A stretch of DNA of 33,658 bases from Pseudomonadota bacterium. GTDB taxonomy: Bacteria; Pseudomonadota; Gammaproteobacteria; Steroidobacterales; JBCBZW01. Shown here in pieces: positions 17,370-33,657 of this stretch; the stretch's first letter is position 1; every line of letters begins with the position of its first letter. The stretch is taken from the NCBI GenBank assembly GCA_039815145.1, contig JBCBZW010000050.1, positions 1 through 33,658 on the forward strand. Reading direction: 5' to 3'. A model generated the notes under the pieces. That model made no database searches. It was not told the DNA's origin and saw nothing but the letters and a program-made list of their open reading frames with translations. The translations under genes and the position numbers were made by a program.

Positions 17370-18173
17370 ATGTGCCTACTCGCGATCGCCTGGCGCTGCC
17401 ACCCGCGCCACGACCTGGTGTTCGTCGGTAACCGGGACGAGTTCTACGAGCGGCCCACGCAGGCGGCCGCCTGGTGGCAGGCCGGCGAGCGGGCGATGTT
17501 CGGGGGGCGCGATCTGCTGGCCGGGGGCACCTGGCTGGGCATACGTCGGGACGGCGCCTTCGCCACGGTGACCAACGTACGTGAGCCAAACGCCCGCCGC
17601 GCAGGTGCCCGGTCGCGCGGTCACCTCATCACCTCCGTGCTGCGCGCCGAGGATGGGCTGAGCACGCTCGCCACGCTGCGCGATGACGGCGAGCACTACG
17701 CCCACTACAACCTGCTCGCGGGCACCTTCTCGCCCTCGCCGCGCCTGGCCTACCTGAACAACGTCGAAGGGGAGCTGCACCAGGACCTGCCCGCTGGTGT
17801 CTACGTACTGAGCAACCATCGCCTCGATACCCCCTGGCCCAAGGCCGAGCGCATCCGTCAGGCCGTTCAGCGCCTGGTGGATGAACCTTCCGCCGCGGGC
17901 GATGACCAAAGGCTGATCGACGCCCTCCTCACCATCATGAGCGACCGCCACGCCGCCCCTGACGACGCCTTGCCCGCCACCGGCCTGCCCCTCGACCGCG
18001 AGCGCGCCCTGTCCTCGCCCTTCATCGAGACCCAGGGCTATGGCACGCGGGCCACGACGGTGATCCTCGCCAGCGCCGGCGGTGACGCTCATTTCGTGGA
18101 GCAGAGCTTCGGCCCAGGCGGTCAGGTGGGCGAGCGGGTCGATGAGCGCTTCGCGCTGGACCCAAAGGCCTGA
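17370..18173 (+). CDS. NRDE (TANGO2-like) family protein
   Basis: A 267-residue protein of the NRDE/TANGO2 family, starting MCLLAIAW with the conserved Cys2 and carrying the defining NRDE at 21–24 (VGNRDEFYERPT). Other family features are GGRDLLAGGTWLGI, VTNVREP, YNLLAG, and LSNHRLDTPWPKAERI. The family resembles Ntn-hydrolase folds with Cys2 as a candidate nucleophile; human TANGO2 has been linked to lipid and heme handling, but the bacterial role is unclear. No signal peptide. It starts three bases after nudC, and its TGA overlaps the tamA ATG by one base, so it is translated with the TamAB genes. Confidence 0.88.
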   Translation: MCLLAIAWRCHPRHDLVFVGNRDEFYERPTQAAAWWQAGERAMFGGRDLLAGGTWLGIRRDGAFATVTNVREPNARRAGARSRGHLITSVLRAEDGLSTLATLRDDGEHYAHYNLLAGTFSPSPRLAYLNNVEGELHQDLPAGVYVLSNHRLDTPWPKAERIRQAVQRLVDEPSAAGDDQRLIDALLTIMSDRHAAPDDALPATGLPLDRERALSSPFIETQGYGTRATTVILASAGGDAHFVEQSFGPGGQVGERVDERFALDPKA

Positions 18174-19945
18174 TGGATCGGGTAGGTCACCCCGGCGGGC
18201 GGCTCAGGGCCGCCGCCAAGGCCGTCCTGCTCGTGATCTTCATCGCGACCGGTGCCGATGCGGACACGGTGTCCGTGAGCCTCTCGGGCGTCGAGGGCGA
18301 GGAAGAGAAGAACGTACGCGCCTACCTGAGCCTCGCCCGAGCCGACGATGACGATCGGCAACTGAACGCGCTCAACATCCGCACCTTGCACGGGCGAGCG
18401 CCCCAGCAGATCGCCGAGGCCCTACGCCCCTTCGGCTACTACGAACCCAAGATCAGCAGCACACTCGCCCCGCCGTCAGAGGCTGCCGACGCAGAGCCCT
18501 CGCCTTGGCGCGCGCGTTACGAAATCACCCTCGGCCGCGCCGTACGCCTGCGAACCGTCGACTTGCAGTTGCACGGGGAGGGTGCCGAGGATCCCCGACT
18601 CATCGGTAACGTGGCCGCGCTTCCCCTGCGCACGGGCGATCGTCTGTCCCACCCCACCTACGAGCAAAGCAAGGGCCAGCTGCTGGAGATCGCCCATGAG
18701 CTCGGCTACCGCGACGCCACCTTCACCACCGCCCGCCTCGAAGTGGATCCGGTGCGGGCTAAGGCCGATGTTCATCTCGTGTTCGATACGGGTATCGCCT
18801 ACCGCTTCGGAGAGCTGCAGATCGAGCAGGACGTGATCCGCGAGTCGCTCCTGCGTCGCTACGCCACCTTCGAGGCGGGAGAGCCCTACTCCACGCAAAC
18901 GCTGCTCGACTTCGAGTATCGCCTGTTCGACTCGGGCTACTTCGCCACCGTGATGCTCGAGCCCCTGGCGCCCGAGGGCGATGTCGTGCCCATCCGCCTC
19001 ACCGCCACGCCGGGCCCCCGGCGCGCGTGGAACCTGCGGGGTGGCTACGGCACGGACACAGGGCCGAGGATCGGCGCGGGCTTCGAGAGCCGTCGCTTGA
19101 ACAGCCGAGGTCACCGCTTGCGCGCCAACCTCGAGCTGTCCGTGCCCCAACAGGAGCTCGGGTCGGAGTACATCGTGCCCCTGAAGCGCCCGGCCAGCGA
19201 TGAGCGCAGCTATCAGCTGGGCCTCGCCAACCAGGAACTCGGCGACACGGACAGCCGGCGCGTCGAACTCGGCGTGCGCGAGACACGCCGCGACGGCCCC
19301 TGGCAACGGATCCGCTACCTGCGCTACCGCGCCGAGCGCAACATCACCGGCGATGAGGAAAGCACCGCGCAGCTGCTGGTGCCCGGCTACACCCTCGTGC
19401 GCGCGAAGAGCGACAACGTCACCTACCCCAGGCGCGGCACCTATCTGGAGGTAGACCTCCACGGCGGACTGGACGAAGCGCTGTCCGACACGAGTTTCCT
19501 GCAGCTACGCAGCGACCTGCGCCTTATTCACCCTGTAGGCGAACGAAACCGGTTACTACTGCGTGGCGAGTTGGGCGCGATCGTCGCCGATGACTTCGAC
19601 CAGCTGCCCGCCTCCGAGCGGTTCTTCGCTGGCGGGGACCGCAGCGTCCGCGGCTTCGCTCTGAACCAGCTCGGCCCGCGGGACGGGGAAGATCAGGTGG
19701 TGGGCGGTCGCTACCTGGTGGTGGCCAGCGCCGAATACGAGCAACGCATCGTGGGCCCGTGGGGCGTCGGCGTCTTCGTCGATGCAGGCAATGCCTTCGA
19801 CGACGCTATCGACCTCGAGGTGGCCGCTGGGTTCGGGCTGCGCTGGCTCTCACCGATCGGCATGGTGCGCTTCGATCTCGCCCAGCCGATCACCGACGGT
19901 GACGACGGTTGGCGTATCCACTTCACCTTCGGGCCAGAACTGTGA
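18173..19945 (+). CDS. tamA: Translocation and assembly module outer-membrane protein TamA
   Basis: Omp85-family outer-membrane barrel that works with TamB in assembly of outer-membrane proteins and envelope lipid homeostasis. The 590-residue protein has an N-terminal leader (about 10–30, AAAKAVLLVIFIATGADA) and POTRA repeats over about 30–270. These include a GRAPQQIAEALRPFGYYEP segment characteristic of the TamA first POTRA. A 16-strand barrel region follows from about 280 onward. The Omp85 lid-lock motif VRGF is at 492–495 (RSVRGFALNQLGPRD). The C-terminus IHFTFGPEL matches TamA endings. The start overlaps the preceding stop by one base, and the stop overlaps the tamB GTG start (GTGA), giving a coupled pair. 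Confidence 0.93.
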   Translation: MDRVGHPGGRLRAAAKAVLLVIFIATGADADTVSVSLSGVEGEEEKNVRAYLSLARADDDDRQLNALNIRTLHGRAPQQIAEALRPFGYYEPKISSTLAPPSEAADAEPSPWRARYEITLGRAVRLRTVDLQLHGEGAEDPRLIGNVAALPLRTGDRLSHPTYEQSKGQLLEIAHELGYRDATFTTARLEVDPVRAKADVHLVFDTGIAYRFGELQIEQDVIRESLLRRYATFEAGEPYSTQTLLDFEYRLFDSGYFATVMLEPLAPEGDVVPIRLTATPGPRRAWNLRGGYGTDTGPRIGAGFESRRLNSRGHRLRANLELSVPQQELGSEYIVPLKRPASDERSYQLGLANQELGDTDSRRVELGVRETRRDGPWQRIRYLRYRAERNITGDEESTAQLLVPGYTLVRAKSDNVTYPRRGTYLEVDLHGGLDEALSDTSFLQLRSDLRLIHPVGERNRLLLRGELGAIVADDFDQLPASERFFAGGDRSVRGFALNQLGPRDGEDQVVGGRYLVVASAEYEQRIVGPWGVGVFVDAGNAFDDAIDLEVAAGFGLRWLSPIGMVRFDLAQPITDGDDGWRIHFTFGPEL

Positions 19946-22900
19946 AGCGAACGCTTCGCTGGGTCGCCCTGGGCACCATCGCCATGTTGGTGGTCGTCGC
20001 CCTCGCGAGCACCCTCGCGCTGGTCACGCCCCTCGGCACTTGGGCCGTGAATCGCTTAGGTCTACCCGGAGCGTTGCCGAGCGGGGTAACGGTGGAAGGC
20101 TTGAGCGGGCGACTCGCGGGCGACCTGCAGCTGTCGCGCCTACGCGTGGTCGGCGATGGCTTCGCGGTGGAGGTCCGCGATGGCGAGGTCGAGTTCTCGC
20201 CCTGGGGATTACTGCTCCCACCACGGTCTCTTCGCATCGAGCGCATCGCCGCCGCGGAAGTGGTGGTGGAACAGACCCCGACGCAGGCAAGCAAACCACC
20301 TGCTCAGAGCGGCCCGATCCCCCTGGGCGCGCCCCAGCTGCCCATGTCCGTGCTGGTCGATGACGTCGATGTCGACCTGGTGGAGGTAAGCACCGCTAGC
20401 GGTTGGGCCGCGACGATCACCGCCCTTCGCGCCGCCGGGGCTTGGCGCCCGGAAGGCGCGTCGGTCGAAGGCTTGCGCTTTGCCGCGCAGGTACGCGCTC
20501 CCGAGGGTGACGGCGCCATCGCCAGCTTCGAAGCACGGGGCAAGGCCTTGTGGCCGAGCGACTCCGGCCAAGCCAGCGAAGCCCTCCTGACGCTGGCCGG
20601 AGAAACCGCGGGCTTGCCGGCGCTCGAGATCACCGCGGGCCTGCAGGGCGCCCTGGCGGGCCAGCCCACACTATCGCTGACCAGCGCCGCCCCGTTGGCC
20701 GCCGTGCTCGAGGGTCGCGTGCGTGGCCTTAAGAACCCCTCGACCATGGCGGGTGATGCACGCCTTACGCTACCCGAGGCGATCGACCTGGCGCTCTTAC
20801 ATGAGAAGCTGCCGCCGATCACGCTCACGGGAACGCTGGCGGCCGCCCTGGAGGATCAGACCTTGAGCGCCCAGCCCAGGCTCACCATCGGGCTCGAGGC
20901 GTTCGATGTCATCGCGCCCGATCGACGCACCGCCATGGTGGAAGGGTTAGTCACCGTCCGCACGGCTGGCACCGCGCCCGCTACCCTAGGGGTGGAGGAG
21001 TTAGCTGTTTCCCTAGGTAACCCCGAAGCGCCCTCCGGGCGGATCTCGGTGAAGGGCACCGCCACCGCCGAGCCCTCCGTAGACGCCAGCGTGCGCATCG
21101 ACGGTCTGGATCCGGCGTGGGTCGCCCCCCAGTGGAACGGTCGGCTGGAGGGCGATATCGCGCTGGTCGCCGCCCTGCAAGACGGCGCAGCGCTACCCAA
21201 CATCGAACTTCGCGAGTTCATCGTGCAGGGCGAGCTGCGCGAGCAACCGGTCGTCCTGCAGGGCAAGGGCAGCTTCAACGACGAGGGGCGCTTGACGATC
21301 GACGGACTGACCGGCCGCAGCGGCGAGGCAACCCTCGATGTCGACGGTGCCCTGACGCTACTGCCGAGCACGGGCTGGCTGCCCAGCGCCGCGACGCTCG
21401 AGGCGGCCTTGGAAGTCCCGGACCTCGAGGAAGTGATGCCCTACGGCTCAGGGAGTCTGTCGGGACAGGCGACGCTGCAAGGCGACCTCGACAACCCGGT
21501 GGTCGTGGCATCGGTGAGTGCCCAAGCGCTGGCCCTCGACGGCAACATCGCTCTAGATAGCGCAAGCGCGGACATCGATGTCCAAGGTCGCGACGCGCTC
21601 TCCGTCGACGTGAGCGCGCAACGCCTCCAGCTTGCCGGCACGTCCCTGGCACGGGTCACAGCAGGGGCCGAAGGCAGCCTCGACCAACACGAGCTAACGC
21701 TTTCGATCGTCAACCCTGAGGGCACGCTACGCACGGCGGTCAGCGCCGAGGCGGACATCGACGGCCGGCGCTGGGTCGGTACCCTGCGGGAGTTCTCCCT
21801 GAACGCCCTCGATCGAGAATGGCGCTTGGCCGCAGGCGGCGACCAATCACCCACCGCCGAACCGCCGCGTTTGCTCATCTCGACGCAGGAACAGTCGCTC
21901 TCGCCCCTGTGCGTCGCGGCGCCTCCCCATTCCGATCGCCTCTGCGTCAACGGCAAGGCCGAGGGCGAGGTCCTGGACGCTCAGCTGACCTTGGAGTCGG
22001 TGGCCCTGCAGCCCTGGACCAGCCTCCTGGCGCTACCTATCCGCATCGACGCCAGCCTGGCGGGAGACCTTCGCGCTCAGCGCACGGCGCAGGACGCGTT
22101 GCCCACGGTGGCTGGGGGCGTGCGCTTGTCACCCGGCGAACTCACCTTGAGCCCGATCGACCAGGAGGAAGTCGGCGAACGGGCCCTGCGCTGGGATCAA
22201 CTCTCGGTGGAGATCGACACGGTGGAGGAGAGCCTCATCGCAAGCGCCACGGCCGATCTCACCGACGCGGGACGCGTCGACGCGCAGGCTCGCTTGCCAC
22301 GCGCTCTCCTGGGGTCAGGGTTCGAGCCGTCGGCCCACGAGGTGGAAGCGTCCGTTCGCGGTGCCCTGGAGATCCCCGAGCGCCTGGCCGACGCCATCCC
22401 CGGGGTGACCGACCTCAGCGGTCGGGCCACAGTGGATCTTTCGGCCAACGGCGCACTCAATGCGCCTCGCCTGCTTGGCAGCGTCGAGGTGCGCGAGGTG
22501 GAGGCCGATATCGCCCAGGCCGGGCTGCATGTGCAAGACGGAGAGCTCACGCTGCGCGCCGAGGACAACACCCTGAGCGTCCGCGCTCGCGCGGGCACCG
22601 GCGAGGGCGTCTTGCAAACGCAAGCGACCTTCGAACGGGACGATACCGCGTGGCGCGGAGCGTTCTCCCTCGACGGCGAACGGGTGCTGTTGATGGACAC
22701 GCCCCAGGTACGCGCCTTCATCACCCCATCGCTGCGCGCCCGCGTCGATTCGGCGGCACAGACGATCGAACTCGACGGCTCCGTGCTGGTGCCCGAAGCG
22801 CGCCTACGGCCCATCGATCTTTCGAACGCCGTGCGGACATCGAACGATGAGGTCATCGTCGGCCAAGCGGCCGCCGAGACCGACGATGGCTGGCGCACCA

Positions 22901-23601
22901 GTGCGGACCTTACGCTCGCCCTAGGTGAGGATGTGAGCTATCGCGGGGGCGGCTTCACGGGTTTTCTGCGCGGCGAACTCGCCGTGCGTGAGCGACCGGG
23001 GGAAGTCACCACCGGCAACGGCGAACTCAGCGTCGCCGACGCCCGCTTCTCCGTCTTCGGCCAGACCCTGGAGGTCAACCGGGGCCGGGTGGTGTTCATC
23101 CGCTCGCCGCTCACCAATCCGGGGCTCGACGTGCAGGCCAGTCGCAGCGTCGACGACGTCACCGTGCGGGTGGACGTGCGCGGCACCCTGCGCGACCAGG
23201 TGATCACCGTCTCCTCCACCCCAGCGCTACCTCAGGCCGATGCCCTCTCCTACCTGGTCGTCGGCAAGCCCGTGAGCGAACTGCAGGGCGGCGGTGACTC
23301 GGAGCTCCTCGCGAGCGCGGCCCGCCAGGGGGGACTCGCCGGCGCCGACCTGCTGGCGCGCCGGGTCGGGCGCCGCATCGGCCTCGACGACTTCGGCGTG
23401 GAGCAGGAACAGGGCGGGGAGAACGCTCAGCTGGTGGTGGGCAAGTATCTGTCGCCACGGCTGTACGTGCGCTACGGCCTCGGCCTGTTCGAGACCCTGA
23501 ACACGTGGCTCCTGAGGTACGATCTCTCGCGGCGCTGGGCCGTAGAGACGCAGACCGGCGCGCAAAATTCCGTCGACGTGCTCTACTCCATCGAGAACTG
23601 A
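19942..23601 (+). CDS. tamB: Translocation and assembly module inner-membrane protein TamB
   Basis: AsmA/TamB-family bridge protein thought to span the periplasm as a lipid-conducting beta-groove, partnered with TamA. The frame is open from 19909, but the GTG at 19942 overlaps the tamA TGA as GTGA and gives an N-terminus of VKRTLRW followed at once by a signal anchor (about 8–28). This start is therefore preferred, giving 1,219 residues, a typical TamB length. The middle is a long series of beta-strand repeats of the form RLTLPEA… and GEARLDVDG…. The C-terminal DUF490 domain is evident: VVFIRSPLTNPGLDVQASR, LSYLVVGKPVSEL, RRIGLDDFGVEQEQ and VGKYLSPRLYVRYGLGLFE. Ends with VDVLYSIEN. Confidence 0.93.
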   Translation: MKRTLRWVALGTIAMLVVVALASTLALVTPLGTWAVNRLGLPGALPSGVTVEGLSGRLAGDLQLSRLRVVGDGFAVEVRDGEVEFSPWGLLLPPRSLRIERIAAAEVVVEQTPTQASKPPAQSGPIPLGAPQLPMSVLVDDVDVDLVEVSTASGWAATITALRAAGAWRPEGASVEGLRFAAQVRAPEGDGAIASFEARGKALWPSDSGQASEALLTLAGETAGLPALEITAGLQGALAGQPTLSLTSAAPLAAVLEGRVRGLKNPSTMAGDARLTLPEAIDLALLHEKLPPITLTGTLAAALEDQTLSAQPRLTIGLEAFDVIAPDRRTAMVEGLVTVRTAGTAPATLGVEELAVSLGNPEAPSGRISVKGTATAEPSVDASVRIDGLDPAWVAPQWNGRLEGDIALVAALQDGAALPNIELREFIVQGELREQPVVLQGKGSFNDEGRLTIDGLTGRSGEATLDVDGALTLLPSTGWLPSAATLEAALEVPDLEEVMPYGSGSLSGQATLQGDLDNPVVVASVSAQALALDGNIALDSASADIDVQGRDALSVDVSAQRLQLAGTSLARVTAGAEGSLDQHELTLSIVNPEGTLRTAVSAEADIDGRRWVGTLREFSLNALDREWRLAAGGDQSPTAEPPRLLISTQEQSLSPLCVAAPPHSDRLCVNGKAEGEVLDAQLTLESVALQPWTSLLALPIRIDASLAGDLRAQRTAQDALPTVAGGVRLSPGELTLSPIDQEEVGERALRWDQLSVEIDTVEESLIASATADLTDAGRVDAQARLPRALLGSGFEPSAHEVEASVRGALEIPERLADAIPGVTDLSGRATVDLSANGALNAPRLLGSVEVREVEADIAQAGLHVQDGELTLRAEDNTLSVRARAGTGEGVLQTQATFERDDTAWRGAFSLDGERVLLMDTPQVRAFITPSLRARVDSAAQTIELDGSVLVPEARLRPIDLSNAVRTSNDEVIVGQAAAETDDGWRTSADLTLALGEDVSYRGGGFTGFLRGELAVRERPGEVTTGNGELSVADARFSVFGQTLEVNRGRVVFIRSPLTNPGLDVQASRSVDDVTVRVDVRGTLRDQVITVSSTPALPQADALSYLVVGKPVSELQGGGDSELLASAARQGGLAGADLLARRVGRRIGLDDFGVEQEQGGENAQLVVGKYLSPRLYVRYGLGLFETLNTWLLRYDLSRRWAVETQTGAQNSVDVLYSIEN

Positions 23602-28525: not shown

Positions 28526-31291
28526 ATGGCAGCGAAGAAAGACAACAAGACCGGCACCCTCTACCTCATCGACGGGTCCTCCTACCTCTACCGCGCCTTC
28601 CATGCCCTGCCGCCCCTGACCAGCGCCGATGGCCGCCCCACCGGGGCCGTCTACGGCGTGGTCAACATGCTCAATAAGTTCCTGCAGGAGACCGAACCCA
28701 CCCACATCGCCGTGCTGTTCGACGCGCGCGGCAAGACCTTCCGCGACGAGCTCTACGCGGAGTACAAGGCCCAGCGCCCCTCCATGCCCGACGACCTGAA
28801 AGTGCAGATCGAACCCCTGCACGCCACCGTCAAGGCCCTGGGGCTACCGATCGTGCAGGTGCAGGGGGTGGAAGCGGACGACGTCATCGGCACCCTGTGC
28901 ACCCAGGCGCGGGCTGCCGGCTGGAAGACCGTGGTGTCCACCATCGACAAAGACATGGCCCAACTGGTCAACGACGAGGTCCGGTTGGTGAACACCATGT
29001 TCGACACCCAGCTCGACCGCGACGGGGTGGTGGCGAAGTTCGGCGTGCAACCAAAGCAGATCGTCGACTACCTCGCCCTCGTCGGCGACACCTCGGACAA
29101 CATCCCCGGCGTGCCCGGCGTAGGCCAGAAGTCCGCCGCCGGCCTCCTCGGCACCTTCGGCGACCTCGACGGCATCTACGCCAACATCGAGAACCTCGCC
29201 GAGGCCAAGGTGCGCGGCGCGAAACGCATCGGCGAGAAGCTCCTCGAGCACCGCGAGGATGCCTATCTATCCCGTCAGCTGGCGACGATCCGCTGCGACG
29301 TCGAGCTGGAGGTCAGCGCCACCACCCTAGCCCGCGAGACCGCCGATGTGAGCGCCCTGCGCTCGCTCTACACGGAACTCGAGTTCGGCACGCTGCTGCG
29401 AGCACTGCCCCACGACGCACCAGGCGCGGCGCACACGCAACCCGCTGCGGCCGAGGGTGACGCCCCCAGCGAACGCACCCTCCAGCTGATCCAGGACGAC
29501 GCCGCACTCCAAGGCCTGCTCGACGCACTCAGCGGGCAAAACCGCGTCGCCATCGACGTGCACACGCTGCGCCCCGAGCACCAGAGCGCCGAGGAGCTGG
29601 TCGGCTTCTCCATCGCCTGGGAAGGAGGTGCTCAGGTGGCCTACGTGCCGACTGGGCATCGCTACCCCGGCGTCCCCGAGCAACTCGCCGCTGACGGCGT
29701 GGTAGCAGCCTTACGCCCGCTCCTCGAGGGGAGCGCACCCTCCCTCGTCACCCACGATGTGAAGCGCTTGGGCCATGTGCTCGCCCACTGGGACGTCACA
29801 CCTAGCGCGATCGATAGCGACCTCATGCTTGCCTCCTACGTGGTGAACAGCACCACCGGGCGCCACACGCTCGATGAGCTGGGCCTCAAGTACGGTGGCC
29901 TGGCCCTGGACGACTACGTGTCGATCGCCGGCAAGGGGGCGAAGCAACTCGGCTTCGACGAGCTCGAGATCGAACGCGCCGCCGAGTGGATCGCGCCGCG
30001 CACGGGCGCCATGCCGGCCCTGCACGACACGCTCAGCGCGCAGCTCGAGGCGACGCCCGCCCTGGCCACCCTCTATCGCGAACTCGAACTGCCCTTGGCG
30101 GACGTGCTCCGACGCATGGAAGCGCGAGGCGTGCTGGTGGACGCGGAGCAGCTGGCCCAGCAGGGCAAGGAGATCGGCGCCCAGCTGAAGACCTTGGAGG
30201 CCCAGGCCTTCGAGGAAGCCGGCGAGACCTTCAACCTCGGTTCTCCCAAGCAACTGCAGGAGATCCTCTTCGGCAAGCTGGGCCTGCCCGTGAGCCGCAA
30301 GACGCCGAGCGGCCAACCCTCCACGGCGGAGGATGTGCTGGAGGAGCTATCGCAGGACTTCGCCCTGCCGCGCCTGATCCTCGAGCACCGGGCGCTGGCC
30401 AAGCTCAAGTCCACCTACATCGATAGCCTGCCGCGGGTCGCCTCGGCCAAGGACGGGCGTGTCCACACCACCTACCACCAGGCCGTGGCCGCCACGGGGC
30501 GCCTCTCCTCGGCCGACCCGAACATGCAGAACATCCCCATCCGGCGGCGAGAGGGGCGGCGCGTGCGGCGCGCGTTCGTGCCCGCGCCCGGCTGGCAGCT
30601 GATCTCCGCGGACTACAGTCAGATCGAGCTGCGCATCATGGCCCATTTGTCCGCCGACGAGAGCCTTGTGCGCGCCTTCGCCGAGGACCGCGACATCCAC
30701 CAGGCCACGGCCGCCGAGGTTTTCGGTGCGCTCACCGTGGACGAGGTGACTGGCGATCAGCGCCGTTCGGCGAAGGCGATCAACTTCGGTCTCATCTACG
30801 GCATGTCGCCCTTCGGCCTGGCCCGCCAGCTCGGCATCGCCCAGTCCGCCGCCCGCGAGTACGTCGATCGCTACTTCGAGCGCTATCCGGGCGTGCGCAC
30901 GTTCATGGACGAGACGAGAGCACAGGCCCGCGAGGACGGCTACGTGGAGACCGTGTTCGGCCGACGCCTGTATCTACCGGAGATCAATTCGCGTAACTAT
31001 CAGCGCCGTCAGTACGCCGAGCGCAGCGCCATCAACGCGCCCATGCAGGGCACGGCCGCAGACATCATCAAGCGGGCCATGATCGCCGTGGAAAGCTGGT
31101 TGAGCGACGAGTTCGCCAACGACGCGCGCCTGATCATGCAGGTTCACGACGAACTGGTAGTGGAAGTCACCGAAGACGCGGTGAGCGCTGTGAGCGAGGG
31201 CCTCAAGGAAAGAATGAGCGGCGCCGCCGAGTTGGCGGTACCGCTGAAAGTCGAGGCGGGTAGCGGGCAGAACTGGGAAGAGGCCCACTGA
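28526..31291 (+). CDS. polA: DNA polymerase I with probably inactive 3'-5' exonuclease site
   Basis: Repair and Okazaki-fragment polymerase, 921 residues. The 5'-nuclease domain (1–about 290) is intact, with LYLIDGSSYLYRAFHALPPL, VEADDVIGTL, TIDKDMAQLV and GDTSDNIPGVPGVG. The polymerase domain has motif A DYSQIELRIMAHLS, motif B RRSAKAINFGLIYG and motif C QVHDELVVEV. The middle DnaQ-like domain is recognisable but its metal ligands are damaged. By motif alignment with E. coli PolI, D355 and D424 correspond to Asp344 and Asp432, while E357 becomes His346, Y497 becomes Trp488 and D501 becomes Arg492. Proofreading should therefore be lost while gap filling and nick translation remain. The gene is followed by a candidate sRNA and convergent engB. 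Confidence 0.95.
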   Translation: MAAKKDNKTGTLYLIDGSSYLYRAFHALPPLTSADGRPTGAVYGVVNMLNKFLQETEPTHIAVLFDARGKTFRDELYAEYKAQRPSMPDDLKVQIEPLHATVKALGLPIVQVQGVEADDVIGTLCTQARAAGWKTVVSTIDKDMAQLVNDEVRLVNTMFDTQLDRDGVVAKFGVQPKQIVDYLALVGDTSDNIPGVPGVGQKSAAGLLGTFGDLDGIYANIENLAEAKVRGAKRIGEKLLEHREDAYLSRQLATIRCDVELEVSATTLARETADVSALRSLYTELEFGTLLRALPHDAPGAAHTQPAAAEGDAPSERTLQLIQDDAALQGLLDALSGQNRVAIDVHTLRPEHQSAEELVGFSIAWEGGAQVAYVPTGHRYPGVPEQLAADGVVAALRPLLEGSAPSLVTHDVKRLGHVLAHWDVTPSAIDSDLMLASYVVNSTTGRHTLDELGLKYGGLALDDYVSIAGKGAKQLGFDELEIERAAEWIAPRTGAMPALHDTLSAQLEATPALATLYRELELPLADVLRRMEARGVLVDAEQLAQQGKEIGAQLKTLEAQAFEEAGETFNLGSPKQLQEILFGKLGLPVSRKTPSGQPSTAEDVLEELSQDFALPRLILEHRALAKLKSTYIDSLPRVASAKDGRVHTTYHQAVAATGRLSSADPNMQNIPIRRREGRRVRRAFVPAPGWQLISADYSQIELRIMAHLSADESLVRAFAEDRDIHQATAAEVFGALTVDEVTGDQRRSAKAINFGLIYGMSPFGLARQLGIAQSAAREYVDRYFERYPGVRTFMDETRAQAREDGYVETVFGRRLYLPEINSRNYQRRQYAERSAINAPMQGTAADIIKRAMIAVESWLSDEFANDARLIMQVHDELVVEVTEDAVSAVSEGLKERMSGAAELAVPLKVEAGSGQNWEEAH

Positions 31292-31310
31292 TAAATTTTG
31301 TGCTGCGGGT

Positions 31311-31340
31311 GGAACTCTTCGGTGCCTCGCCGCATCTATA
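31311..31340 (+). promoter_or_regulatory. Sigma-E/AlgU-like promoter candidate
   Basis: GGAACTC at 31311–31317 resembles the sigma-E -35 element (GGAACTT), and TCTATA at 31335–31340 lies 17 bases downstream, near the expected -10. TATACC, overlapping it, would be a four-of-six sigma-70 -10, but has no matching -35. It lies just after polA and points at the candidate small RNA. Predicted by eye only; transcription would begin near 31346–31350. Confidence 0.45.
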
Positions 31341-31346
31341 CCTGTG

Positions 31347-31471
31347 AGCGTTGTTAGTGCGCTTGCCCGTTGTTCTCCCTAGACGGGCTCCGCGGCCTGG
31401 CTTTCCCCGGCCAGGCGCGACACCGCTGACCCCGGTGGCTGTAATTCCCCTGCGGCCACCGGGGTTTTTTT
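31347..31471 (+). ncRNA. Candidate small RNA in the polA–engB interval (Spot 42/ErsA position)
   Basis: The interval downstream of polA contains three successive hairpins ending in a strong terminator and no ORF-like sequence. Hairpin 1 is GCCCGT (31365–31370) with ACGGGC (31383–31388), its 12-base loop carrying the pyrimidine-rich TTCTCCCT. Hairpin 2 is GCCTGGC (31395–31401) with GCCAGGC (31410–31416), extendable by three pairs across a bulge. Hairpin 3 is the terminator. The start is estimated from the sigma-E-like promoter and is uncertain by several bases, giving about 125 nt. In enterics this interval encodes Spot 42, and in Pseudomonas the AlgU-dependent ErsA. No primary-sequence identity to either is claimed. 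Confidence 0.6.
31430..31471 (+). terminator. Strong rho-independent terminator
   Basis: CCCCGGTGGC (31430–31439) pairs perfectly over ten bases with GCCACCGGGG (31455–31464) around a 15-base loop, followed directly by seven T residues (31465–31471). The T-tract is on the plus strand, so it ends rightward transcripts: polA read-through and the candidate sRNA. It is the clearest intrinsic terminator in the window. Confidence 0.9.
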
Positions 31472-31491
31472 CCCAAAGTTCAGGCCCCAGG

Positions 31492-32136
31492 TCAAGTCGA
31501 CTCTCCCGCCCGAATCGAATCAGGTGCGGCGGCCGAATCCCCCTCCAGCCACCGACGGGTGACCTGACGCGCTTCGTCGACGCCCACCCGGCGCAGACCT
31601 GAGAACAGTTGCACCCCCACGCCGTCACCCAATTCGCGCCGTACGGCCGCCAGGGTGCGGGTGGATTCGTTGCGATTGAGCTTGTCAGCCTTGGAGAGAA
31701 GCACGTGTATCTCGGGCTCGTGCGCTTGCGCGAAGGCCAGCATCTGCCGATCGAAGGGGCCGAGCGGGCGACGGGCGTCCATGATCAACATCATGCCGAC
31801 GAGGGAGCGACGCTCGGCGAAGTAGGCCTCCATCAGCTGGGCCCACTGCGCCTTCACCTTCGGCGGCACCTGGGCGAAGCCGTAGCCCGGCAGGTCTGCC
31901 AGGCGGCCGAGGTCCTGGAGGTCGAAGAAATTGATGAGCTGGGTGCGCCCTGGCGTCTTGCTGGTGCGGGCCAGGCCTCGGCGGTTGGTGATGGCGTTGA
32001 TCGCGGTCGACTTGCCGCAATTGGAGCGTCCCGCGAATACGACTTCACGACCAGAATCGTGGGGAAATCCCCGAACGTCGGCCGCGCTCGTAAGAAAGTT
32101 TGCGAGTGGCAGGGATGGGCTCCCGGTCGCGTTCAT
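31492..32136 (-). CDS. engB: Ribosome biogenesis GTPase EngB (YihA/YsxC)
   Basis: Essential-type GTPase acting in 50S subunit assembly. The frame is open to 32406, but the ATG at 32136 has a good AAAGGGGG Shine-Dalgarno and gives the usual length (214 residues), starting MNATGSPSLPLANFLTSA. G motifs seen: G1 GRSNCGKS (36–43), G2 region TPGRTQ, G3 DLPG (81–84) and G4 SKADKL. YGFAQVPPKVKAQW is a family signature. Ala in the usual SNAGKS is Cys here, a minor change. The last 15–20 residues (AAAPDSIRAGEST) are a loose tail. It is divergent from the cytochrome c4 gene and convergent with polA and the candidate sRNA. Confidence 0.93.
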   Translation of the reverse strand: MNATGSPSLPLANFLTSAADVRGFPHDSGREVVFAGRSNCGKSTAINAITNRRGLARTSKTPGRTQLINFFDLQDLGRLADLPGYGFAQVPPKVKAQWAQLMEAYFAERRSLVGMMLIMDARRPLGPFDRQMLAFAQAHEPEIHVLLSKADKLNRNESTRTLAAVRRELGDGVGVQLFSGLRRVGVDEARQVTRRWLEGDSAAAPDSIRAGEST

Positions 32137-32153
32137 GGGCGCCCCCTTTCCTG

Positions 32154-32159
32154 TACAAT
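32154..32159 (+). promoter_or_regulatory. Probable -10 element for cytochrome c4 gene
   Basis: TACAAT, five of six matches to TATAAT, lies 50 bases before the cytochrome c4 ATG in the short divergent region with engB. The -35 position (TTCATG around 32132–32137) is weak, so the assignment rests on the -10 and location. Confidence 0.45.
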
Positions 32160-32209
32160 TCGCGCCCCGTGGCGCACCGCAACGATATCGGAACGGAGCA
32201 TTAAAGAGT

Positions 32210-32818
32210 ATGCATATTGCAGCAAAGCACTGGGCTCTCGCCCTGGTCACCGCCTCTGCCCTGCTGATGGGCGGAGCCCACGCCGCCGGTTCGGCAGACG
32301 CCGGTAAGGCAAAATCTGCCACCTGTGCTGCCTGCCACGGCGCCGACGGCAACAGCCTGAACCCCGAATGGCCCGCCCTCGCCGGCCAGCACGCCGCGTA
32401 CATCATTACGCAGCTCGAGTGGTTCCGCTCCGGTCAGCGCAAGAACGTGCTCATGTCCTCCCAGGCAGTCAATCTGTCGGATGAGGACATCAAGGACCTG
32501 GCCGCGTACTTCTCCAGCCAGCCGCTGAAGGTGCCCGGCGCCGTCGAAGGCACCGTGGAGAAGGGTGAGAAGCTCTACCGCGGCGGCAACGCCACCACTG
32601 GCCTCACGGCCTGCATGGGCTGCCATGGCCCGAACGGCCGCGGCAACCCCGGCGCCCTGATGCCCGCGGTCGGCGGCCAGCACGCCGCTTACACGGCCAG
32701 CGCGCTGAAGAACTATCGCTCCGGCGAGCGCGAGCACCCGATCATGGGCGCCATCGCCCAGCGCCTGACGGACGCCGAGATCGATGCCCTGGCCGGCTAC
32801 CTGCAGGGCCTTCACTGA
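32210..32818 (+). CDS. Diheme cytochrome c4
   Basis: Periplasmic diheme electron carrier, often donor to terminal oxidases. The ATG at 32210 is preceded by CGGAG (32194–32198); the same frame upstream shadows engB. The 202-residue precursor has a signal peptide (about 7–26, HWALALVTASALLMGGAHAA). Two homologous halves carry CAACHG (39–44) and CMGCHG (135–140), each followed by the c4-type LAGQHAAYIITQL and VGGQHAAYTASALKNY. The repeated GQHAAY and later Met residues (VLMSS, HPIMGAIAQRL) supply the expected sixth heme ligands. polA–engB–c4–dsbA is the order known from Pseudomonas-type genomes. Confidence 0.95.
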   Translation: MHIAAKHWALALVTASALLMGGAHAAGSADAGKAKSATCAACHGADGNSLNPEWPALAGQHAAYIITQLEWFRSGQRKNVLMSSQAVNLSDEDIKDLAAYFSSQPLKVPGAVEGTVEKGEKLYRGGNATTGLTACMGCHGPNGRGNPGALMPAVGGQHAAYTASALKNYRSGEREHPIMGAIAQRLTDAEIDALAGYLQGLH

Positions 32819-32837: not shown

Positions 32838-32866
32838 CGGCGGCCCCGAGCAAATGGGGGCCGCCG
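32838..32866 (+). terminator. GC-rich hairpin after cytochrome c4
   Basis: CGGCGGCCCC (32838–32847) and GGGGCCGCCG (32857–32866) form a perfect ten-base stem with a nine-base loop, 20 bases past the cytochrome stop. Only a weak AACTT follows instead of a T-tract. It may terminate or attenuate transcription into dsbA or protect the upstream message. Confidence 0.6.
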
Positions 32867-32946
32867 AACTTCCGCCAGCCATGGCCGTCAGAGCTAGCGA
32901 CGACCCAGGGCGACAAGCGATCGCCCATCATTCAGGGAGAAAGAAT

Positions 32947-33657
32947 ATGAAGTTCCTCGCCGGCCTCACCCTGGCCGCCCTTACCGCCTTCACCGGCGCC
33001 GCCTGTGCTGACGAAGCACCCACCCGGCTCGCCCAGGCCCTGTTCCAGGAGGGCGTGCACTTCGAGCGCCTGCCCCAGGCGCAGCCGACCTCCAGCCCCG
33101 CAGGCACCGTCGAGGTCACCGAGTTCTTTATGTACAGCTGCCCGCATTGCTTCAGCTTCGAGCCGCACGTGGAGAACTGGCTGGAGAAAAAGCCTGCCAA
33201 CGTGAACTTCGTGCGCGTGCCGGCGAGCTTCAACCGCGTCGCCCAGCTGCACGCCCAGGCCTACTACGCCGCCGAGGCGCTCGGCGTGCTGGAAGATGTG
33301 CACGGGGAGTTCTTCCGCGAGTTCCACGTGCGCAAGAACCGCCTGATGACGGAGAAGGCCCTCACCGCGTTCTTCACCGATCAAGGCGTCGATAAGGCCG
33401 CTTTCGAGAAGGCCATGGCGTCCTTCCCGGTGGATGCGAAGCTGAAGAAGAGCGCCACCATGGCCCAGCGCTACCGCCTGCAGAGCGTGCCCTCGGTGTA
33501 CGTGAACGGTAAGTACCGCACGGACGCCACCATGGCGGGCAGCTACCCGAACCTGCTGCGCGTGATCGACTACCTCGTGGCCATCGAAGGCGCGAGTGAG
33601 ACCGAAGATGCGTCGGCCAGCGTCAGCGCGCCGGCCAGCAGCGACGGCCAGGGCTAA
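32947..33657 (+). CDS. dsbA: Periplasmic thiol:disulfide interchange protein DsbA
   Basis: Oxidase that introduces disulfides into exported proteins. The ATG at 32947 has an excellent Shine-Dalgarno (AGGGAGAAAG) and gives 236 residues; the upstream open frame from 32854 lacks support. Signal peptide about 1–21 (MKFLAGLTLAALTAFTGAAC). The active site is CPHC (Cys65–Cys68) in the context FFMYSCPHCFSFEPH, and the cis-Pro loop is the VPSVYVNGKY segment. A Ser/Ala/Glu-rich C-terminal tail (about 215–236) extends past the usual DsbA end. The stop TAA lies one base before the window end, so the gene is complete. It shares the window with LptM and diheme cytochromes, all of which relate to periplasmic thiol chemistry, though no operon link is shown. 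Confidence 0.95.
   Translation: MKFLAGLTLAALTAFTGAACADEAPTRLAQALFQEGVHFERLPQAQPTSSPAGTVEVTEFFMYSCPHCFSFEPHVENWLEKKPANVNFVRVPASFNRVAQLHAQAYYAAEALGVLEDVHGEFFREFHVRKNRLMTEKALTAFFTDQGVDKAAFEKAMASFPVDAKLKKSATMAQRYRLQSVPSVYVNGKYRTDATMAGSYPNLLRVIDYLVAIEGASETEDASASVSAPASSDGQG

Follow-up and report, generated by a model that had tools for sequence, protein, structure and literature searches.

A predicted small RNA gene with a sigma-E-type promoter between polA and engB, and its relatives across the Gammaproteobacteria

The polA locus houses the small RNAs (sRNAs) Spot 42, alpha-r7 and sX13 according to the excerpted text of PMC3771888, whose authors noted in 2013 that Xanthomonas sRNAs have their homologs mainly in Xanthomonadaceae and raised the question of whether sRNAs of like action are encoded at the polA locus elsewhere among bacteria (section 23), while ErsA is located in the interval between polA and engB (excerpt of PMC8575079). 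We ask here what occupies this interval in a gammaproteobacterial stretch of 33,658 nucleotides (contig JBCBZW010000050.1, hereafter the window), for which a preliminary description had given the Spot 42/ErsA address. The address holds by the open reading frame list together with homology: polA lies upstream on the forward strand (28526–31291; its C-terminal 121 amino acids match 58 of 59 genomes) and a convergent engB frame lies downstream on the reverse strand (31492–32406; its annotated start is too early, with homology beginning at about residue 95). The interval between them is 200 bases long.

This interval is very likely an sRNA gene. The predicted RNA of approximately 125–131 nt would run on the forward strand from 31346 (a start inferred from the −10 element) to 31471, and its fold reaches −70.2 kcal/mol against −47.8 (sd 3.5) in 200 dinucleotide shuffles, none of which was as good (z −6.34). 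Three stems had been described previously; the fold contains four, and the account of the last one as a ten-pair stem with a seven-T tail agrees with the terminator in the consensus of the relatives. Stem-loop 1 (GAGCG...CGCTT, 31346–31364) is seen in the fold and in the covariation of relatives (19 and 88 sequences), and is followed on the same strand by stem-loop 2 (31365–31388), whose loop, GTTCTCCCTA, is the best candidate for a seed. The CU-rich loop given in the preliminary description, TTCTCCCT, is present in the window, but the CTCCCT loop sits in the second hairpin and not in the first. Stem-loop 3 (about 31391–31419, forward strand) exposes a CCCC loop, and stem-loop 4 (31428–31471, forward strand), again with CCCC in its loop, is a Rho-independent terminator according to the fold, a terminator scan and covariation. 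Its hairpin spans 31428–31466, for which the minimum-energy fold gives 16 pairs and the consensus of the relatives 10, the seven-T run occupies 31465–31471, and it was the strongest of three terminator-like sites in a scan of 31200–31560.

A scan of 31200–31560 for sigma-70-type promoters found none. Read directly, the forward strand carries a sigma-E-type −35 element, GGAACT (31311–31316), and, 18 bases after it, a −10 element, TCTATA (31335–31340), in agreement with the GGAACTC-17-TCTATA reported before (GGAACTC at 31311–31317, TCTATA from 31335). The genome encodes RpoE (306.2 bits, above the family cut-off) as well as Hfq (97.8 bits, above its cut-off), and CGAACT-N17-TCACA stands directly upstream of its own rpoE. 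The RpoE model gave 23 matches in this genome, one above the cut-off and 22 below, the latter suggesting many ECF-like sigma factors.

Alignment of the interval from relatives, a check proposed in the preliminary description, revealed compensatory changes in the stems, with both stems and promoter boxes kept. A single genome of the same genus was found (interval identity 90%), and an sRNA-like stretch lies no more than 700 bases from the polA stop codon in 20 of 30 polA loci (L006–L035, the window's own included); CTCCCT occurred at ≤ 700 bases in 21 of them, that of L034 not being an sRNA. The alignment A1 comprised 19 sequences chosen by a GGAACT-like filter, with one locus (L010) left out for want of a T-run. 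In A1, 94.7% of the cells are paired, compensatory changes are seen at 14 of the 27 pairs, the covariation score was reached by 0 of 500 shuffles, pairing falls below 50% if partners are slid by one column, and CTCCCT is invariant (19/19). A covariance model (R1) was built from 19 sequences of the order only; it matches the window, itself a member of the training set, at 31341–31472. Among 88 sequences from the order and the class, in an alignment fitted to the model and hence biased towards its structure, 95.1% of the cells are paired and all 27 pairs show compensatory changes. The second loop contains CTCCC in 80, the third CCCC in 79 and the terminator loop CCC in 65 of these 88, and CCC occurs in at least two of the three loops in 87/88; shuffled loops, which are C-rich already, would contain CCC in 62%, 52% and 52% of cases, respectively.

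The promoter was counted in sets of copies that were not chosen for it (A2, order; A3, named genomes; A4, class matches up to E 1, including known-family loci and likely noise); the A1 count (18/19) was left unused as circular because the A1 rows had been chosen by the GGAACT-like filter. Exact GGAACT lies upstream in 16/21 (A2), 53/75 (A3) and 24/82 (A4) copies, compared with about 1% in shuffled upstream sequence, and a box with at most one mismatch occupies the expected place in 84/94 (A2 and A3 together) and 62/82 (A4). The TC of the −10 box follows the −35 box by exactly 17 bases in 76/84 and 52/62 of the boxed copies, figures that come from a recount without the preference for 17 that a first spacer count had applied in ties. 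Promoters of E. coli sigma-E and Pseudomonas AlgU are known to be built in this way. Counted from GGAACT, the spacer is 18 bases in the window and in two ErsA loci and 17 in most relatives. The sigma-E-like promoter that had been proposed is thus conserved among relatives at a set spacing, and common control by sigma-E across the family appears probable from these sequences.

The preliminary description had further suggested that the organism has its own sRNA here. Covariation, promoter conservation and synteny bear out the gene, but it belongs to a class-wide family and is not private to this organism: R1 matches 241/296 genomes of the order (58/68 genera, training genomes counted in) and 172/369 genomes of the class (133/272 genera), so that candidates bearing on the question of 2013 about other bacteria's polA locus are available at the level of sequence. 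The window itself shows what was used to define the family, i.e., matches to R1 and R2 (a later model, see below) with four covarying helices, C-rich loops and the polA-engB locus, and it is in both training sets. R1 gave no match in 55/296 order genomes and 197/369 class genomes. Two of the genomes without a match (G018 and G031, group f4/g17; loci L012 and L028) have a polA-engB gap of only 24 bases, which leaves no room for the sRNA, and appear to have lost it. At least one of polA and engB adjoins the match in 19/20 order loci, 72/75 named loci and 53/59 class loci, the last being hand-picked from match lists with known-family loci included; at 6 of these 59, neither does. The median gap is 107–159 bases to polA (upstream, same strand) and 30–51 bases to engB (downstream, other strand), with the distance to polA exceeding 2 kb in some loci.

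A pattern scan of named genomes had Woeseiaceae, Thioalkalivibrio, Competibacteraceae and many gammaproteobacterial MAGs among the matches listed (80 of 98 matched stretches; 5 of the 80 without an R1 match, and L127 and L144 looking like chance). Matches such as those in Clostridia were taken as chance, and the loci L083 and L136 represent a single position in one genome (G004), where the contig ends and polA is about 5.5 kb off. The order of the window appears to include Woeseiaceae, as the record WVYQ01000029.1 equals G253 (family f7) in score and span. By R1, the sRNA also occurs in tandem arrays, with four copies each in L257 (3050–3806) and L273 (3059–3996), five in L301 (2757–3501) and two in L274 (3062–3406); the second loops of some copies in the L301 array are divergent.

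The relation to named sRNAs was examined with Rfam models and with a further covariance model, R2, trained without sX13 and ErsA. Rfam at the gathering threshold found nothing in the whole window. Within the interval the highest match was alpha-r7 (RF02342; 29.1 bits, E 3.1e−4, cut-off 60), followed by anti-hemB (RF02837; 23.4 bits, cut-off 49.5), sX13 (RF02232; 20.5 bits, cut-off 50) and ErsA/Pseudomon-1 (RF01719; 18.0 bits, cut-off 50), all missing their cut-offs. The covariance search suggested earlier with the Spot 42 and ErsA models therefore places the window in neither family: ErsA stays at the 18.0 bits just given, and Spot 42 had no match on the window at the gathering threshold, nor in the interval at E up to 10. 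Weak interval matches to Scr3202, Hrs1 and eukaryotic families were judged chance. We also considered whether f10 is Xanthomonadaceae and the window RNA sX13 by descent, and dropped the idea, since none of the f10 loci tried scored above the sX13 cut-off and the above-cut-off sX13 matches fall in family f28.

Across the order, the best-scoring relative is anti-hemB, an sRNA listed in tables of PMC5688073 and PMC3521395 (both in excerpt). Its Rfam model matches all 20 order-level sources (E 6.7e−11 to 0.0045; two above the cut-off) and 88/185 class genomes at E up to 0.001 (9 above the cut-off), many of the latter coinciding with places of R1 matches; above their cut-offs in the same 185 genomes are sX13 in two and ErsA in one. 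R1 scores two sX13 loci at 36.1 and 30.0 bits and ErsA weakly at 20.2 bits (E 0.0033). With R2, three sX13 loci reach 41.8, 35.7 and 37.7 bits, two ErsA loci 31.7 and 33.3 bits, and eight Rfam-named anti-hemB loci 37.2–59.3 bits (best match per locus), these last not being held out, as the training set of R2 (A5) has above-cut-off anti-hemB copies (L069, L259, L303). Of the 19 training rows of R1, three were checked against anti-hemB (the window, L008 and L011), all scoring under the cut-off. The eight anti-hemB loci divide alike by place and promoter: engB adjoins five (L375, L377, L381–L383) and the same five have a sigma-E-type box, which the other three (L372–L374) lack. Anti-hemB differs from the window RNA in being shorter (81 model positions) and in that polA does not adjoin it in the loci seen. 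One further anti-hemB locus (L293, 3091–3200) holds a single copy with hemB nearby and no sigma-E-type box, and another stretch (L294, 3012–3305) has two copies of anti-hemB type near an smpB gene; both loci are away from polA and engB.

ErsA resembles the window RNA in its place (PMC8575079, excerpt), its C-rich loops and its sigma-E-type promoter with the same spacer in two loci, and R1/R2 matches overlap it in L292 and L379; it differs in that its Rfam model falls far short of the cut-off on the window and its own R2 score lies within noise. Also downstream of polA and with three C-rich loops is sX13 (PMC3771888, excerpt), where a good sigma-E-type box is absent in two of three loci (L290, L291) and weak in the third. 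The same excerpt describes alpha-r7 as a polA-locus RNA of three stem-loops with C-rich motifs and reports no sequence similarity of sX13 to Spot 42 or alpha-r7; the R2 matches outside the class include none beside polA. Spot 42 (spf) sits in the interval between polA and engB (yihA) in E. coli K-12 and, as far as R2 can tell, shares the address only, R2 giving no match there at E values of up to 1.

Taking these results together, we consider it likely that the window encodes a trans-acting sRNA of about 125–131 nt which belongs to a polA-engB family, is transcribed from an RpoE-type promoter, ends at its own terminator before the convergent engB and represses mRNAs through its C-rich loops. 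Under envelope stress, RpoE would transcribe the RNA from the GGAACT promoter, and its three C-rich loops, similar to the anti-Shine-Dalgarno end of 16S rRNA, would base-pair with target mRNAs at G-rich ribosome-binding sites and reduce the translation of these mRNAs. Hfq may take part at the U-tail, a step that is doubtful because sX13, in the excerpt of PMC3771888, does not need Hfq. The longer spacer of the window's promoter, the genomes of order and class in which R1 has no match and the six class loci with neither neighbour speak against this reading.

Other readings of the same interval have to be weighed against this one. The hairpins could be nothing else than the 3′ end of polA, terminating and stabilising its mRNA with no separate sRNA, given that the predicted RNA begins on the polA strand, 55 bases past the stop codon of that gene, and would also terminate polA read-through; we regard this as very improbable, as the upstream stems and loops covary beyond the needs of a terminator, the promoter is conserved at a fixed distance, polA can be more than 2 kb away and, in the tandem arrays, every one of the four copies in L257 and the five in L301 has a box of its own with no more than one mismatch. 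Unlikely, to a lesser degree, is a real sRNA gene served by another sigma factor, with GGAACT incidental or read by another ECF factor. The 22 sub-cut-off RpoE-model matches in the genome would provide candidates, and the loss of the box in the sX13 loci L290 and L291 and in the anti-hemB loci L372–L374 means that the RNA can exist without it, but the box is strongly conserved at a fixed spacing, the same motif precedes the genome's own rpoE, and ErsA transcription is sigma-22 dependent (PMC7565897, excerpt). The RNA might also act on a protein or on ribosomes, as a sponge or an anti-Shine-Dalgarno mimic, instead of pairing with chosen mRNAs, which would suit the several alike C-rich loops per RNA and the multi-copy clusters. 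CsrA sponges carry GGA in their loops, a motif that none of the four window loops contains. With similar loops, sX13 represses mRNAs by acting on their G-rich motifs (PMC3771888, excerpt), and we hold the sponge or mimic to be quite improbable.

The origin of the family is a question on which the evidence is divided. On one account, the ancestor of Gammaproteobacteria in the wide sense carried, between polA and engB, a single sRNA that was driven by RpoE and had three C-rich loops of anti-Shine-Dalgarno type, with ErsA, sX13 and anti-hemB as the descendants of this RNA; sigma-E control would have been lost on divergence (sX13) or on leaving engB (part of anti-hemB), tandem arrays would have arisen in a few lineages, and Spot 42 would have replaced the RNA in enterics. 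We find this account equally easy to accept and to doubt. Rated somewhat under an even chance is the alternative in which the window family is real while ErsA, sX13 and anti-hemB have separate origins and came to share C-rich loops and the locus by convergence. Rfam places these three in no clan, and Spot 42 illustrates that the locus can hold an unrelated sRNA. Moreover, in the two sX13 genomes R2 also matches another C-rich RNA (L386, 2068–2177; L387, 2011–2112) at 35.2 and 33.8 bits, compared with 35.7 and 41.8 bits for sX13 itself. This RNA has a T-run and two C-rich hairpins, lies near neither polA nor engB and has ar14 (below cut-off) as its nearest Rfam model. These matches make a single ancestor less likely and imply that R1 and R2 partly score C-rich hairpins as such, so that the family link rests jointly on place, whole-model match and promoter. 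The ErsA scores of 31.7–33.3 bits are within noise because off-locus matches reach as high: six outside the class, with neither polA nor engB adjoining and set aside as noise, score 30.0–33.5 bits, and two in-class matches without these genes 34.0 (L378) and 31.7 bits (L384). Against convergence stand the overlapping positions, the whole-model matches, the polA/engB synteny, the sigma-E-type box in two ErsA and five engB-linked anti-hemB loci, and intermediates such as G464, which scores on the Rfam models of all three named sRNAs, below each cut-off (41.8, 37.1 and 48.3 bits). The three named sRNAs may thus be divergent branches of the polA-engB family, and if these links hold, they would become one family, and Woeseiaceae and other little-studied groups would gain a candidate envelope-stress regulator. 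As far as our searches show, the link between sX13 and ErsA is unprinted: no paper in the literature searched names both as whole words, and the relevant work on the polA locus consists of the sX13, Spot 42, Erwinia and ErsA papers and one review. The RNA is of interest for how widely its family occurs and for the probable shared control by sigma-E, with a testable common regulator (RpoE) and a testable common mechanism (the C-rich loops).

A possible target of the window sRNA lies close by. A dsbA-like gene starting at 32947 has the Shine-Dalgarno sequence AGGGAGAA at 32934–32941, complementary to the second loop of the sRNA, and the same-genus genome has AGGGAGAC in its place, keeping 7/8 of the seed site. 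Upstream of this gene is a sigma-E-like CGAACT-N17-TCAGA (32865–32892), also kept in the same-genus genome, and a promoter of this type combined with the seed site would amount to an incoherent feed-forward loop of the kind reported for ErsA and algC (PMC7565897, excerpt). The dsbA-like mRNA is thus a candidate target, to be taken as a lead only, as is the excess of the pattern AGGGAGAA-N-ATG (25 sites versus 3 for the reversed pattern), many sites of which are not at real gene starts. Elsewhere in the window (18173–23601), genes for a TamA-like protein (Omp85, POTRA) and TamB belong to envelope biogenesis.
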